From positions 3,413,443 through 3,477,442 of the forward strand of contig NW_006763291.1 in NCBI RefSeq assembly GCF_000218685.1: 64,000 nt of DNA, in the 5' to 3' direction. The notes beneath the pieces were generated by a model, which worked only from the letters and a program-made list of their open reading frames with translations, was not told the origin of the DNA and did no database searches. The position numbers were made by a program, and so were the translations under genes. This DNA is from Serpula lacrymans var. lacrymans S7.9. Taxonomy: Eukaryota > Basidiomycota > Agaricomycetes > Boletales > Serpulaceae. This document shows, piece after piece, positions 14,305-22,774 of this stretch (position 1 is the first letter of the stretch; each line of letters starts with the position of its first letter).

Positions 14305-14385
14305 CCACACAGAAAGTCAACTTTTGTCACACGTTGATGAAAAAGTCCGAAGGTAGTTAAGATGTTTAATTGTAGGTGTTCTGCC
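14305..14385 (+). repeat. Diverged half of a foldback MITE
   Basis: The segment with CAACTTTTGTCACAC, GATGAAAAAGTC and TTAAGATGTTTAATTG resembles one arm of the palindromic MITE at 22130-22407. It lies just outside the left end of the DUF6589/RecQ element. No matching second arm is seen, so this is a decayed copy or a chance-shortened relative. Confidence 0.45.
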
Positions 14386-14448
14386 ACTTTTCCCAAAATT
14401 TGTCCGGATGGTTCATCAAGGTTCCATAGGAATTATCAGGGGTCCTCG

Positions 14449-14665
14449 CAGACTCCAACCACTCGGCGGGGTGTTCTCCTACATCCTAGTGTAGCCACAT
14501 TCGATTACATAATAAATAGTTTTCCGAAGTTTTATCGAAATTTTAGTGTTGAGGATAACACCCCAAGCCGACTGGCAAACTTTGCTGTGGCTGAATATTT
14601 AAGTCTATTTGTTCACCCTGTAAGAAACGGTGCTCCTGCCAAAAGAAGACCGGCCATACGGAGCA
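14449..14665 (+). repeat. Left terminal inverted repeat of the DUF6589/RecQ element
   Basis: 217 bp, starting CAGACTCC and ending GGCCATACGGAGCA. It matches the reverse complement of the right end at about 97% by eye. The flanking 9-bp duplication is at 14440-14448. Confidence 0.85.
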
Positions 14666-14779
14666 ACATAAAAGTAACCGACACCAAAATTGGTAAGTAA
14701 GTTTGAACATGCAGAGTCAACGTGTAGGGGGAAGAGACAGTTAGAATGGCACACTTTTCAAATCCTTTAGACAGCTCAA

Positions 14780-17355
14780 ATGGTCTCCTCGGAGGGTATC
14801 AACAACATCTTGTACATTTTAAAACAAAATAATGCTACTTTGTCATCACTTCTCTATGAAATCCTTAACAGTCAACCTCTTACTCATTGCGGCACCCAAG
14901 AAATAATTGTCCAAGAGGCTGAAGACATCTGTAGAGTCTTGTATAGCCATCCATCAACTAGGCAGAACATCTTTGCATGGGCAATGGATACTGTCAAGTC
15001 TTGCTTATGTAAAGAGGTTAAAGAACTCACTCACCAGTCACAACCTACACTTTTGTGCAACAGCAGCCACGTCGGAGCAACTAGAGGGGGGATTCATGCA
15101 GTTAATTTCGCTTAAAATGAAGACTATCACCCCAAACCTTTGGGGTTTGATGATGGCCCTCTTATGAAACAACTCGGAAGCCTCAGATATCCTAGTGGAT
15201 GAGGCAGAGATGGATCTCGGTGAAATTGGAGGTGATGATGAGGAGGAAATGAATGAAGAACATACCAGAGATCCCAACTTGATAGCCAGCAAGAGTGGTG
15301 AAAAAAATAGCCGCCAAGCAAAGTGAGCAGAGGATTGGAAAAAGGCACTTTTTCTTGTGGTGAGAATGTCCAAAAATGGCCTTGAATAAAAATTAATGGG
15401 GATTCACTCAGAAAGCTGTTGTTTGCATCAGTATCTTCCTACAGAGTGTAAACAAGAGATGCAATTACCTGCAAGGTCTCCTCAGTATCTTCCTGCACTC
15501 AACTGGGGCCCCCGAGAAAGTTGTTGAGGTCCTTGCACACACTGGCTTGTCTGTCAGTGTCATATCAATCCATCAGGCAGTGAACTCTATGTCACATGGG
15601 ATCTCAAGTCAAATCAAACAAGCTGTGCAGTCTATGCGGTCAGCTTTTGCTTACGACAATTTTGATATCAATTTCCAAACTGCGCAACCTACCTCGGAGC
15701 ACCAAACCACCTTTGTCAGCATCACATCTGCTACTATTGTGCCAATATATGGCATCATGGACCCAATAACACTGAAATGTTCAGCCACATTATGGGAGCG
15801 TGATCCATTGAATCCCAATCCAACAGAACCAATCAGTGATACTGTTGACATTGCATAACTGCACAAGGACGATACTTACAATAAGAGGCTATCCGGCCAA
15901 AAATTCAGCCCACGCCTTCAAGTATTTGCATGGCACATTTGCAATATTCTGGTTTCTCACAGCGGACATTTCGGACATTTTGCAAATCAGCTTGCTGAGC
16001 CAGACCCTGTAACCCAGATCCCGCTGCATAAAACAGATCAGATAACTTGTCGTGCTATGAAAATAAAACAGTCTACATCAGATGGCAATATTGAAGCCTT
16101 GGAGAATCTACTAAGGCAAGGTGATGAGGATTTTGATCTTGATCATGACAAGGACATGTCAGAATATGTTCTCTTTGTCCATGGGGACTTACTCACAAAA
16201 GAGCGGATTGATGCTGTTCGCCATTCTTGCCGCATTGAAAGAACACCAAAGGATTGGTTTCAATACATTGTGTTTCTGCCAGGGCTCTTCCATTATAAAA
16301 TGGCATGTGCTGATGCAATCTGGCGGACATACCTGCAGCCTGCAGACTCTCAAAGCGACCCAAATAGCTTATATGAGCACATTGGGATGCTGCGTCCTAA
16401 AGAGACAGGAAAGCTCATCAGCAAGCCTGGATTCAGGCGTATGCACAACATTGTGCACCATGACTTGACAGGATCAATGCTTAACTGCTGGCAACATAAG
16501 ATTACCAAAAGAAATCCACAGTGCTCATCAATTGAGCTGTTTGCAACTACAAAACCCACATGGGAGGACATAGTTGACATGTCCGACGCAATTGTGGCCA
16601 AGTATATTGGGACCAGTCCTGATTTGCATAAAGAACGCAGCAAACCTTTCCACGAGCGTGACAAAGTGTATGGAAACCAACTCCTCCACAATTGTGATGA
16701 GCTCATGTATGTTGATTTATGCCATGCCATGAATTCTGGAGATGTGGGTCATGTTGAGGCCTCGTTCTTGCCATGGATACATATCTTTGTCACTGTTGGG
16801 AAGCATAAGTATGCAGCACAAATAAGCAAAATTTTATGTGACCTTTGCTATCAATACCCTCCAGATTTGAGGTGAGCTTGCTTTGGTGAAAGACATCCAT
16901 GAACTAAATTGTTCCCAGTCAATTGATACACCTTAACCTGCTGTGCAATCCAAAGGGTGTGACTGGGGCATGGTGTGCCATTGATTGGCTAGTGGAGCGG
17001 AACAACCTGTACACAAAGGTCAGTAGGGAACTATAGGAATATAGCATTACTTGATATCCCTGTATCTGAGGTAATTGTTTCAGGATTGGGTTCAAATTGC
17101 ACAATAGACCACATCATCGAACATTCACCTCTCATTGAAGTCTTCCGTCACTGCCATATTATTGTCAAAAACCCATTCCACCTCCTCCACCATACAATCC
17201 GCCACCAACCACCAGATATGACCAAGACAATTGAAAAACTTACAAAGCGGCTTTTAGAGACTAAACCACACAAGTTTACTGCCGGTCGTAAATTGCGCTT
17301 TTCTGTTGATGATAAGGTAGCAAGCGGCTTTGGGATTATACAAAAAAAGGGGTAG
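14780..17355 (+). pseudogene. DUF6589-domain gene, degenerate
   Basis: DUF6589 proteins are abundant in agaricomycetes and have no known function. Recognisable blocks: N-terminal 14780-15050 (helical, ending AWAMDTVKSCLCKEV), an acidic linker in another frame near 15180-15320, LLSIFLHSTGAPEKVVEVLAH near 15478-15540, AFAYDNFDINF (15640s), VHGDLLTKERIDAVRHSC (16180s), FLPGLFHYKMACADAIWR (16270-16325), LRPKETGKL (16390s), WLVERNNLYTK before 17018 and CTIDHIIEHSPLIEVFRHCH (17101-17160). Breaks: an early stop at 15113-15115 with frame change, an in-frame TAA at 15856-15858 inside a block that continues open on both sides, and a frame conflict at the 17019-17083 intron acceptor. Introns at 16872-16918 and 17019-17083 are consistent with consensus. 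The number of breaks argues for a dead copy. Confidence 0.75.
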
Positions 17356-17599
17356 GAGTATCTACATCTGGGGAGGGCGATAGTGAGAGTGTTGAAATAA
17401 CTGGTGCCGACCTTGTAGACTGACCTATTTTACACTGTGGTATGCTCACCATTTTGTGTGGGCTTAATATTCTCGTCATTGGGATGATTCTGTGTCTTCC
17501 GGGGCTTTGATGGGATGGAGCCATACTTCGGGCAGAGGCGATTTGATGCTAAGAATACATCTGTTAATTTGCCATAGTGAGCAAGATCAACAATGCAGT

Positions 17600-20198
17600 C
17601 GAGGATTTTGTTGGCGATGACAAGTTGGGCCCCAAAAAAGTCGACATCTCCATAACCAGCATCAACCATCTGCTTCTCTTGTGTTTAGCACACGTTAACT
17701 GAGGCAGCGATAATGGGACAAACAGGATGCACAAGTCCTGGTTGCAAATATCGCAACAAAGCCGCGACAAACAACAGCTGCATCTCTCACACTCACACCT
17801 GTCGCCACCATTCTCACTGTGTTCTTCACTGCAGGTAAGCTATTGTTCTTTGTTATAAAGCAACTGACACAATATACCATCAGGATTTGCGAAGTATTCG
17901 TCGACAACGCAGCATTAGCACAGGCAAGAATTAATAAAGATATCCATCGCCACCATCTCGAGCTCTGCAACTGGACAATTGGCCGGTAGGATTTTGGTCC
18001 TAGACTCGGAGCTGGATGCCAACTCAAGGTGAGAGAATCCATTTGAATGAATATGGCATGATTGCCCTATTGTCTCACTCTCTACAGGTGCCATCACTAC
18101 ATCCCCATCACCACCACTATTGCCACTGCCCTCCTCAGGCTCGGCCTCAACAAATGGCTCTTTGTTCGACGGACCTTCATCATCTTCATGGTGAGTTTTG
18201 TGCCGCTTTTGTGCTGGCTTTTGCTGATCCTCCGTATTTTTTCTCTTGGATGATTGTTTATGGCTATCAAAGTGCCGTGGTTCAACAAAATAAATTGCAG
18301 TCGCTTCAATGTTCACATTGCATGCAGCACGCCCAAACTGTTGTAAGAGCGAACACAGAGATTTTGTATACCCCCATTGTATCACAAGCTTAATGCTGCG
18401 TAAGTCTAGACCCTACTTGTCTTTGAATACAAATACAAAAATATTTGATAGCTGACGCACCTGTGAGGCAACGATAAACTATAACAAAAACGAAACCTGT
18501 CTCCTTCTGCACTTGCAGGGAGTAAAGGGTTCAATGAGCTTGAGGTCGACAGACGCTAGTAAATATAGCGAGTAGAGGACTTTGAGAGGTAAGCTTCAAA
18601 GGTTTTCGTTGAGGAGTAAAGTGGGTAAATTCAGTAATAGAAAACTAAGGAGCCATACATGAATAGGTAAGGCTTTATATAGTGAACTGTTCGTTCCTCA
18701 GACCGAAAGGAGAATATACAAAAAGTGGTCTGAGGAATCAATCGACCAATAAGAAAAAGAGGGAACAACTATCATACGACTTTTAACTTGATTAATCAGC
18801 AGGTGAGAGACTTGTACTAATAATAGAAGATTGTTACGCGTGGTCAGGAACCGTATCCTCATGATGAGGTACGATTCTAGATAAGGCGTTTATTAGTATT
18901 ACCAGGCTTTACTGGGGCTTGGAGCTGGTTGGCGAGATGCCTACTACCAGTCCCTACCCAGTGTGCTGGCTAGCTGGGAGCGATGCCCAGTCTCTGATCT
19001 GTGATATAAAGTGGTAGCGATGGTTAAGAAAGCCTGTGAGGGCTATGAGAAGTAAGATGGCAAAGGATACCTCTAGCCCTAGAGCCAGAGGTGTAACGGG
19101 AAAAGCGTTTGAGAACCAAGACATAACAAAGATAAGAAAATAGTAAAACGGTCCTTACAGCACCATACCTGCAGCATCTGTACAGCAGATGCCCCACAAT
19201 TCCCTCGTGCGTAGCTGTTTTATCGTGTCTCTATGAAACTGAGCGCTCATCCCTGAATGAAACCAGACAACTTTGTCTCGGTGTTCAGATGGCAAGACTG
19301 ATTGTATGACCTCACATGAGTGCTCTGTCTGGTTCCGAGTGTTGTCAAAAATCATAAATGATGGGGGTTGAGTTCCATGGTCAATCCCCAGTGCACAAAT
19401 TAGATCATATTTAGTTTTAATTGGATACACCATTTTTGTGACCATAATGTGGATATTTGGTCTGCCATTGCGGCGATGAATGGTTACAATGTTGTTGGAT
19501 TCCATATGAAGCTTTTTCTTGATGTCGCGGATGATATGTGGTGGCAGAGTAGCAGATGTAGCATGAAATGAGATATGGCGAGGAAGGATCCATTGCAAAC
19601 AATCAAGGTCTCCATATTCAGGGCAAAATCCATCTCCCCACTCACTAATACAATGAGCTTCATCAATTGTCACACTGAATAGCTTGTTTGTGAACTGTCA
19701 GTTTGCCCACAGAATATCAAAGCGCTTGTCTGATAAAACACGCTCGGGGCTTACAATAATAACTCTATATTTTGCAGCTGCAATATCCTATAAGAGTTTC
19801 AACTGCTTGAAAATGGTCAAACGATGTGAACTTACTTTGAACGCTTTGTCAGTGGCTGATTTGGCTTTCAGACAAATAGCAGGGATATTGATGTCTTTTA
19901 GCTCATCCACATTTTTGTCCCCAAGGATGTTGAGTGGTGTAATAAGGATCATGACTCTGTTGTGGAAGAGCAGAGGGATCCAGAAGCACAATGTTTTTCC
20001 TGAGCCTGTAGGAGAAATAGTAATGACATCTTTTGCCTCTAGCTGAGCCCGTGCAGAACGGATCTGCCAAGGGCAAGGCTGAAACCTAAATGTTGAATAT
20101 ACAGTTGCTGATATCTCGTCGATGCTAGGAATGACATTCTGTCGAGAAGACATCAATGATGCTGGCTCAAGAAGGTAACTGTGATGGAAAGAAGTCAA
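17600..20198 (-). pseudogene. RecQ-family DNA helicase, degenerate and interrupted
   Basis: ATP-dependent 3'-5' DNA helicase of the SF2/RecQ type. From the N terminus on the minus strand: Gln/entry motif FQPCPWQIRSARAQLEAKDV, Walker A ISPTGSGKTLCFWIPLL (about 19990-20030), an intron beginning GTAAGTTC and ending CTTATAG, VSPERVLSDKRF, DEAH box TIDEAHCISEWGDGF (about 19640-19673), SFHATSATLPPHI (motif III), and CCTDAAGM (motif V, near 19160). After a ~760-bp insertion come IKLVIQWGYTKSLCSLLQQFGRAA (motif VI; GRA where QRxGRA is usual), an acidic linker and a Cys-rich tail near 17700-17780. Lesions: TGA at 19698-19700, TAA at 17915-17917 and the insertion between 18396 and 19157. It converges on the DUF6589 gene inside the same TIR element. 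Confidence 0.78.
18396..19157 (+). mobile_element. Retroelement fragment inserted in the RecQ gene
   Basis: This segment separates RecQ motif V from motif VI. Its right half (about 18900-19157) is homologous to 34745-34985, the 3' internal region of the gypsy element described below, in opposite orientation: both encode TTSPYP.CWLAG and WLRKP.(R/K)AMRSKMAKDTSSP. The homology stops at GGTCCTTACA, exactly where RecQ sequence resumes. The left half (18396-18890) has no recognisable protein. I did not find a clear target duplication. Confidence 0.6.
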
Positions 20199-20225
20199 AG
20201 TTTACGCAATGTGATACATGGTCTC

Positions 20226-20262
20226 TGCTCCGTATGGTCGGTCTTCTTTTGGCAGGAGCACC
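20226..20262 (-). repeat. Innermost piece of the right TIR
   Basis: TGCTCCGTATGGTCGGTCTT and onward to GGAGCACC is the reverse complement of 14629-14665. The TIR continues at 22071 after the 1.8-kb repeat. Confidence 0.75.
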
Positions 20263-22070
20263 ATCATCGATGATGAGAACTGTTGTTAGAAAAAACCACA
20301 CACAAAAACAAACTAACACACAATCCTCCCAGATTCCACGGAACTTGTTTATGGGGTTTGCCTCCTAGAACAGTGGAGTGGTCTGGTTGTTTGTGGGGTG
20401 GTATGTATGAGGATCCTTCAAAGTAAAACCCAGAGATGTATGGGTGTGGGTTTTGAGGAGGAGGGATAGTTGGAATATAGAAAGATAGGGGCTTTGTGGC
20501 GAGTATAGACGAGCACTACCTTGCTAATCATAGCACAAGGTAGGTTTGAGAACGACAATATGACGAGGTTCCCAGTGATAGCAGGCTCCTGACGCACAAA
20601 CTGTAGTGCTCAGAAGGACTCTAATTGAAAGGGATGACAATGACTTCAAAAGTGGGAAGTGACAATGACAGCAGTTGACAGTGGTAGCAGTGGGAAGTGT
20701 TGTGACCACACTGGATCACAAGCAGCAGAGTAGTGAACTTGAATTTAGAGAAGAAGTCTGGAATGGAGTTCTTGTTGTTTTTACAAGGTAAAATACAGGG
20801 GTTTATATAGTAAAAGAAAAGTAGGCTATGCACAATATAGCTGTGCAAAAAGAATGAGAAAGAACATGAAGGAAGGAATGTATGCTGATGAATCCTGCGT
20901 AGGTAGTACAGGATAAGATTGTCAAAAAAGGAAAAGAAAGAGATAGAACAATGAATGCTGTGAGTAATATCACAGGTTTGTACAGCCATAAAGTAAAGTC
21001 CAATAGCAAAAAGAGAGCAGGAAAATCATGATGTCATGGGAAGATGCAGTAAAAAAAGGGCAAGGCAAAACACTATCAGTATCAACACAGTTCCTTTATT
21101 GTCAGTCAGGCATTCTAAAAAATATGTGTCCATAAAAATGATTCAAAAATCAAAAATAATCACACTGTAAATGAATGTTCTGCTGAAAAAAAGAAACTGG
21201 AGCCACCGGTCCACCACCTAGTCCAAATCCGACAGTTCCATGGCCTTACCAATGGACTGGTTGTGTTGGACCACCTGATCAAAAGAGGGAGGGAGAGGAG
21301 TAGTTCCAATTTGGAACAAGTGGGTCCCAGGCAGCGTGTGGTAGGTGTAGCTGTAGCGAAGACGATGGACAAAAGATAAGTGTACCCAAGTGAATGGGAC
21401 AGCGATGAACATGGGTGATGCAAGGGGATAAACCTTCTCCAGCTCAAAAACTACCCACCCACGCTCCAACCAGGCAAGATGAGCGACCGATGTTTTGATA
21501 GTATATGATGGCAGATCAACGTCATGAAGATGGACCTGTTGCCCTATTTGGACCGGCCGCCGGGGCTTTGCTGATATCAGCAGTGGCACATGGTAGTCAA
21601 CGAATCAGCGATGGAAGCAGATAGGAAGTGGTGACATCAGAAATGGTGGGGGTGCAAATAAGATGAGGAGGAGGAGGGTGGAGGTGACAAAAAAGTGGAT
21701 TAGAATGGGGATCCAGAAATGACTGTCAGGTGAGAATAAAAAGGAGAGGAAGGGGCCCATGGTGGGGCTAGGCAAAGGAAGGGGAGTAAGGGAAACGACA
21801 AAAGTGAGGGCGCAATGCAATGTGTAGCCAGTGGCGACGCGAAAATTTGCCGAAATGCCGAAATGCGGAAAGTACCGGATGGAAAAGCAAAGGTGAGCGT
21901 GACTGGATTGCCTAATAGAGGTGGTGCTGATCAGCCACAAGTTCAAAAAAGGCAATATTAATTACTATTCCACGTGACACTGTGCCTGTGTGGCGCAAAG
22001 GCGAGTCTTTTTGAATATTCGCTTCATTATTAACACCTGTCCATGCTACCAATCAACTTTGGTGCATGAC
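20263..22070 (-). mobile_element. 1.8-kb repeat R, copy R1 (solo-LTR-like)
   Basis: Member of a dispersed ~1.81-kb family seen three times (also 34989-36799 and 37134-38947) plus a stub near 34249-34280. Read on the minus strand it starts GTCATGCACC, has a TATAAACCCCTG promoter-like box near 20800-20815 and ends near CATCATCGATGAT. Comparing it with the intact left TIR shows that it interrupts GGAGCACC/GTTTC, with ACC present on both sides. R1 is clearly older than R2 and R3: it differs at many sites, and its version of the 245-codon frame found in R3 has an in-frame stop near 21600-21605. Confidence 0.7.
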
Positions 22071-22534
22071 ACCGTTTCTTACAGGGTGAACAAATAGACT
22101 TAAATATTCAGCCACAGCAAAGTTTGCCACACAGCAAGCATAACCAACTTTTGTCATACTCATAATTGATGGAAAAGTCTGAAAGTAGCTGAAATATTTG
22201 ATTGCATTTTGGACCTACAAAATGATGTCTTTTTGTTGACATATTCCCATAAATACTATATTTTTGTGTAAATATGTAGAAATATGTTAACAAAAATACA
22301 TTATTCTGATAAAGTTTTGTAGGTCCAAAATGCAATTAAACATTTTAACTACTTTCAGACTTTTTCATTGATTTTGGGTGTGACAAAAGTTGGTTATGCT
22401 TGCTGTGCCAGTCGGCTTGGGGTGTTATCCTCAACACTAAAGTTTCGATAAAACTTCGGAAAACTATTTATTATGTAATCGAATGTGGCTACACTAGGAT
22501 GTAGGAGAACACCCCGCCGAGTGGTTGGAGTCTG
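22071..22534 (-). repeat. Right terminal inverted repeat of the element (split by a MITE)
   Basis: Outer part of the right TIR: 22071-22129 and 22408-22534, interrupted by the 22130-22407 MITE. The end GGAGTCTG is followed by the 9-bp target copy GGGTCCTCG at 22535-22543. Confidence 0.85.
22130..22407. mobile_element. 278-bp foldback MITE with 3-bp target duplication
   Basis: The first 27 bp (CACAGCAAGCATAACC... through TTTTGTCA) are perfectly repeated in inverse orientation at the end. The arms stay similar for about 120 bp each (CTGAAAGTAG, ATTGCATTTTGGACCTAC), making the element almost a complete palindrome with an AT-rich centre. The flank CCA occurs at 22127-22129 and 22408-22410, and the intact left TIR shows a single CCA at this point. 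CAC-type termini with a 3-bp duplication fit a CACTA/CMC-like non-autonomous element; this assignment is an inference from the ends only. Confidence 0.8.
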
Positions 22535-22774
22535 GGGTCCTCGAACGATTCCTTCCCAAAATATCTGGTTTGAGACTAATCATGATGCGTCATAACGGCT
22601 CCGCGGGCAATGGCCCCGACCCTTTTCGCGAGATATGCGTGACTAAATATCCCCTTTGGCCATGTACCGTGGTATCTTGATCATGACTTGCATATATATT
22701 GTACTGCAGTACTGAGGGTTGAACACAAATCACCCTCGCAAATACTGCACCATAGTACTAGAGAAAGATACAGC

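Follow-up and report, generated by a model that had tools for sequence, protein, structure and literature searches.

A degenerate AcademH-like element in Serpula lacrymans pairs DUF6589, a likely transposase, with a RecQ-family helicase

In a 64,000-nucleotide stretch of the Serpula lacrymans S7.9 genome (the window), we find an element bounded by long terminal inverted repeats (TIRs) and a perfect 9-bp target-site duplication (TSD), within which lie pseudogenes for DUF6589 and for a RecQ-family helicase. With a probability of roughly 0.85, we read it as a dead, autonomous-type cut-and-paste transposon of the AcademH kind, in which DUF6589 would be the DDE/D transposase and the element's own RecQ would assist it. 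Two or more unrelated TIR types carry the same gene pair. If this reading is true, DUF6589, a large mushroom family of 'unknown function', is a transposase, and many Agaricomycete gene models are consequently genes of transposons or their relics. Many stray RecQ-like genes may likewise be of transposon origin. Such elements would also provide a handle on the role of RecQ helicases in DNA transposition.

Anatomy of the window element

The element occupies positions 14449-22534 of the window (Table 1). The initial annotation had described 217-bp inverted repeats, a perfect 9-bp duplication, a convergent DUF6589 (+) and RecQ (-) pair and a dead copy, and each of these descriptions was borne out. 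The left TIR is intact. The right TIR is complete yet non-contiguous, its three pieces being parted by two stretches, and we attribute this split to two later insertions. The attribution is supported by a second copy of the same family (L009), which carries both genes and has unbroken TIRs (207 nt at 100%) from which the stretches inserted in the window are missing at those positions. The larger of the two stretches recurs in L011, L012, L014, L017 and, at another position, in L009, and pieces of the insertion within RecQ match L011 and L014. After its own insertion, the window copy acquired stops and three secondary insertions.

Table 1. Features of the DUF6589-RecQ element, in window positions
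Feature	Position	Strand	Remark
Left TSD GGGTCCTCG	14440..14448	.	9-bp duplication
Left TIR, 217 bp, starts CAGACTCC	14449..14665	+	
DUF6589 (putative DDE transposase) pseudogene	14771..17420	+	outer limits approximate, no gene model
Catalytic-position codons of DUF6589	D 15655-15657, D 16186-16188, E 16995-16997	+	
In-frame stop in DUF6589 pseudogene	15856-15858	+	
RecQ-family helicase pseudogene, split by insertion	17564..20201	-	outer limits approximate; 17564-17839 without Pfam match
RecQ motif I PTGSGKT; DEAHC block	19992-20012; 19635-19664	-	
Secondary insertion within RecQ, repeated in genome	18462..19159 (about)	.	missing in L009 between 18461 and 19160
Right TIR, innermost 37 bp	20226..20262	-	97%
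Secondary insertion of ~1.8 kb, multi-copy, splitting right TIR	20263..22069	.	
Right TIR, middle 60 bp	22070..22129	-	100%
Secondary MITE-like insertion splitting right TIR	22130..22405	.	93-nt arms, 89% complementary; missing from L009 TIRs
Right TIR, outer 129 bp, terminates GGAGTCTG	22406..22534	-	99%
Right TSD GGGTCCTCG	22535..22543	.	9-bp duplication

Both genes are recognised by profiles. DUF6589 matches PF20231 on the plus strand (E 2.9e-74), and the helicase matches TIGR00614 on the minus strand at 130.8 bits, over a stretch that, read straight through any introns, spans one TGA and one TAG. Two open pieces of the helicase match RecQ models (E 3.7e-18 and 2.2e-14), and the DEAD match in one window piece exceeds the Pfam cut-off (40.6 versus 26). 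The TIGR00614 cut-off of 219.8 bits is reached by none of the 35 genome matches listed, as is to be expected of scores for exon pieces and relics. In the PDB, the helicase piece of another copy, L050, has two RecQ-family matches: 7a8r (E 3.3e-14) and the ATP-dependent DNA helicase Q1, 2v1x (E 6.9e-14).

We also inspected the flanks. On the left, window positions 14371-14446 are part of a short repeat whose copies on C8, C19 and C16 end inside the duplication. The left flank has 45 further matches, five of which extend into the 80 bases next to the insertion; of these five, three end inside the duplication, one ends before it, and only L066 (on C3) weakly passes the join. No other copy of the right flank was found, and the joined flanks gave no match when scanned against a set of extracted loci. 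Directly right of the TSD, window positions 22551-22578 resemble a terminus of the TAGTCTC family described below, a kind of match that occasionally arises by chance. The element may have inserted in or next to an older, related element.

Copies and gene pairing across the genome

We searched the genome (42.6 Mb, 29 contigs) for further copies. Two of these, L049 and L050, are complete, with both genes between TIRs, perfect 9-bp TSDs and the same CAGACTCC head as the window element. Two others, L058 and L060, carry both genes between unrelated TAGTCTC termini, with TIRs of ~105 bp at 80-81%; L060 has the perfect TSD CCAGAAAGC and L058 has no duplication. Outside the TAGTCTC family, TIRs are 217, 250 and 257 bp long. 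The transposase pieces of the window element and L058 are 24% identical, so the association of DUF6589 with RecQ is old.

The initial annotation had suggested looking for the gene pair inside TIRs with 9-bp duplications elsewhere, and within this genome a perfect 9-bp TSD is present in four of the six two-gene elements with both ends located. Over all 11 TIR-bounded copies scored, which include all six facing pairs among 24 matches, the TSD agrees at 9/9 positions in five, 8/9 in two and 7/9 in one, and is absent from three. One-ended loci (including L011-L016 and L018, and L059, L061 and L062 of the TAGTCTC family) were left out of this scoring, and flanks were judged by eye from the sequence except for L058 and L060. 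The scored copies include short derivatives, with 8/9 for L010 (1.1 kb), 9/9 for C7:2150586-2151362, 8/9 for C1:528977-529955 and 7/9 for C2:1861233-1862241. None of the TSD sequences GGGTCCTCG, CCTGATATG, CACCATAAT, CAATTGCGT and CCAGAAAGC is TTAA.

In L009 the right tip is short of four bases and a target duplication was not seen. Two DUF6589 matches of equal score and profile range lie on opposite strands ~11 kb apart (G000:C18:331570-332136 and 343024-343590), which suggests an inverted duplication; this may explain the missing target duplication of L009. At G000:C10:546858-549029, a RecQ match lies between TAGTCTC-family TIR matches and a DUF6589 match was not found nearby; this is likely an internal-deletion derivative. 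Adjoining one DUF6589 copy is a 474-aa open frame resembling a Ty1/copia integrase (L042:221-1642). A protein search with DUF6589 from locus L019 gave a DUF6589 protein of S. lacrymans var. lacrymans S7.9, identical at 100% over 75% of the query.

The pairing was then counted by profile searches of the whole genome, in which the best 102 of 156 candidates were scored for PF20231 and the best 33 of 124 for TIGR00614, so that the counts are lower bounds. PF20231 gave at least 108 matches in at least 72 clusters, and TIGR00614 at least 35 matches in at least 30 clusters. Of the 30 TIGR00614 clusters among the matches listed, 18 have a DUF6589 cluster within 8 kb, in every case convergent. Since the 8-kb zones around DUF6589 clusters cover 2.6% of the genome, the pairing is above chance. 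A binomial figure for it is overstated, because copies within one family are not independent; the recurrence of RecQ with DUF6589 across TIR families whose ends are unrelated does not rest on that figure. With two helicase protein queries added, at least 66 helicase clusters were found; 32 lie near DUF6589, of which 30 are convergent and 2 divergent.

The initial annotation had counted DUF6589 genes lacking RecQ neighbours as evidence against its proposal. On this point the outcome is mixed: among the matches listed, 33 of the 72 DUF6589 clusters have a RecQ-like helicase match within 8 kb, with 30 pairs convergent, 2 divergent and 1 in tandem, and 39 have none. Of the 31 clusters whose best match reaches at least 150 bits, 15 are unpaired, and in three of those 15 a helicase match lies 8.5 to 10 kb away. 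Either RecQ has often been lost or displaced, or some lineages are without it. Fusion of the two genes is not supported, as all four proteins returned by a search limited to ~907-2887 aa have DUF6589 alone among their precomputed Pfam domains. A search for DUF6589 relatives in viral and prokaryote contigs gave 88 and 67 pattern matches, none of which was confirmed by tblastn.

These counts bear on whether the gene pair could instead be a coincidence of nesting, that is, a DUF6589 repeat and an unrelated RecQ repeat caught in one TIR element. The window element does hold three secondary insertions, which would favour nesting. However, the convergent arrangement is found in at least 30 of the 72 DUF6589 clusters, and in L010, an internal-deletion copy, the end on the DUF6589 side and the 5' end of RecQ are retained within one TIR pair. 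With the anatomy replicated across copies in this way, we reject coincidental nesting as highly implausible. RecQ had earlier been suggested to be either cargo or a transposition helicase. It is a recurrent partner, convergent in at least 30 of 72 clusters, and chance cargo is not supported. A single capture is likewise rejected, since its orientation is the same across TIR families whose ends are unrelated, and RecQ is very probably a resident gene of the element.

DUF6589 as a candidate transposase

That DUF6589 is a transposase, as had been proposed from the structure of the window copy, is very probable, given its place between TIRs with 9-bp TSDs in several families and a structural model that resembles DDE transposases. 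A structure prediction in search of an RNase H-like DDE/D fold had been advised, and its outcome is favourable. The best matches of the predicted fold are the Hermes transposase, which ranks first, and the P-element transposase, with ISCth4 also among the matches; Foldseek alone was marginal. The predicted structure shows an RNase H-like core in which a large all-helical insertion precedes the helix bearing the catalytic E, and D310, D481 and E725 (P0022 numbering) are conserved in DUF6589. Predicted fold and conserved D/D/E together fit a DDD/E transposase. The Pfam DUF6589 match begins at residue 365 of P0022, past the first catalytic residue D310, which may help to explain why the DDE signature went unrecognised. 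No transposase Pfam family was found in five DUF6589 proteins at E≤1, nor in nine more at E≤10; the same scans of the 14 proteins yielded nothing beyond weak, scattered hits in unrelated families.

The predicted mode of action is binding of the long TIRs by the transposase, cleavage at the ends and joining of these ends to target DNA with a 9-bp spacing, from which the 9-bp duplication would result. We infer that the convergent helicase would assist; it might, for instance, open the ends or process strand-transfer or gap intermediates.

The fold matches raise the question of kinship with hAT elements and the P element, with which DUF6589 shares the predicted RNase H-like core and the helical insertion before the E helix. 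hAT elements make TSDs of 8 bp. Here the TSDs are 9 bp, a RecQ partner is present and the 14 DUF6589 proteins have no transposase Pfam match, hAT included; we therefore reject assignment to hAT, though Hermes is the best fold match. Mutator-like elements (MULEs) have long TIRs and 9-bp duplications. A MULE that captured RecQ as cargo would account for the TIR and TSD lengths, and the presence of ISCth4 among the fold matches of the predicted model is in keeping with it. We nevertheless set such an element aside as very improbable: the five plus nine DUF6589 proteins scanned gave no transposase Pfam match at E≤1 and E≤10, respectively, and RecQ, unlike captured cargo, keeps one orientation across TIR families whose ends are unrelated.

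Affiliation with published transposon groups

The initial annotation had put forward an undescribed class of transposon, and this proposal is not upheld. A RecQ helicase in Academ is already reported in PMC3627910 and PMC6416283, and PMC10045372, which cites Kojima 2020 (Mob DNA 11:15) for the AcademH lineage, gives AcademH 9- or 10-bp TSDs and a helicase, and AcademX TSDs of 3 or 4 bp and a nuclease. PMC6416283 assigns PF00270 and recQ_fam domains to fungal Academs and states that Academ helicases frequently carry host-gene annotations. Two further papers report low-copy AcademH in Basidiomycota, Ascomycota and Mucoromycota (PMC10799480) and, in Marasmius oreades, an agaricomycete, Academ insertions that are putatively non-autonomous, together with a profile search for autonomous ones (PMC8290104).

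The window element is therefore best filed as AcademH-like, its transposase being set beside that of AcademH by published description rather than by sequence. The predicted DDD/E fold, the RecQ-type helicase (RecQ being named for Academ), the 9-bp TSDs and the basidiomycete host all fit, as do the TIRs, which are general for such DNA transposons; on these points the published descriptions show no difference. If this filing is right, AcademX belongs to the same superfamily, but it has a nuclease and a 3- or 4-bp TSD. Assignment to AcademX itself is rejected: the TSDs here are 9 bp, and no nuclease family was found among eight window pieces scanned at E≤1. What would remain new is the identification of Pfam's DUF6589 with an AcademH-like transposase; the open-access library searched yielded no paper that makes it.

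Alternatively, DUF6589-RecQ elements could form a distinct, undescribed superfamily of eukaryotic DDE transposons, widespread in Agaricomycetes, whose transposase does not come from Academ and which gained RecQ and the 9-bp stagger independently, converging on an Academ-like state. In line with this, no paper naming DUF6589 was found in the same library (the one match was an unrelated optics paper), the top matches of the predicted fold are hAT and P element, and RecQ partners have arisen more than once, since KolobokH has one too. We nevertheless consider a separate superfamily unlikely, because the recQ_fam helicase, the 9-bp TSD and the basidiomycete host fit the published statements on Academ and AcademH.

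KolobokH, a fungal Kolobok lineage, resembles the window element in combining a DDD/E transposase with a RecQ helicase, and is reported only from fungi. There, however, RecQ lies downstream of the transposase domain and the Kolobok TSD is TTAA, whereas here the helicase gene is convergent and the 9-bp TSDs differ from TTAA. These observed duplications contradict a Kolobok origin, which we reject as having almost no chance of being correct.
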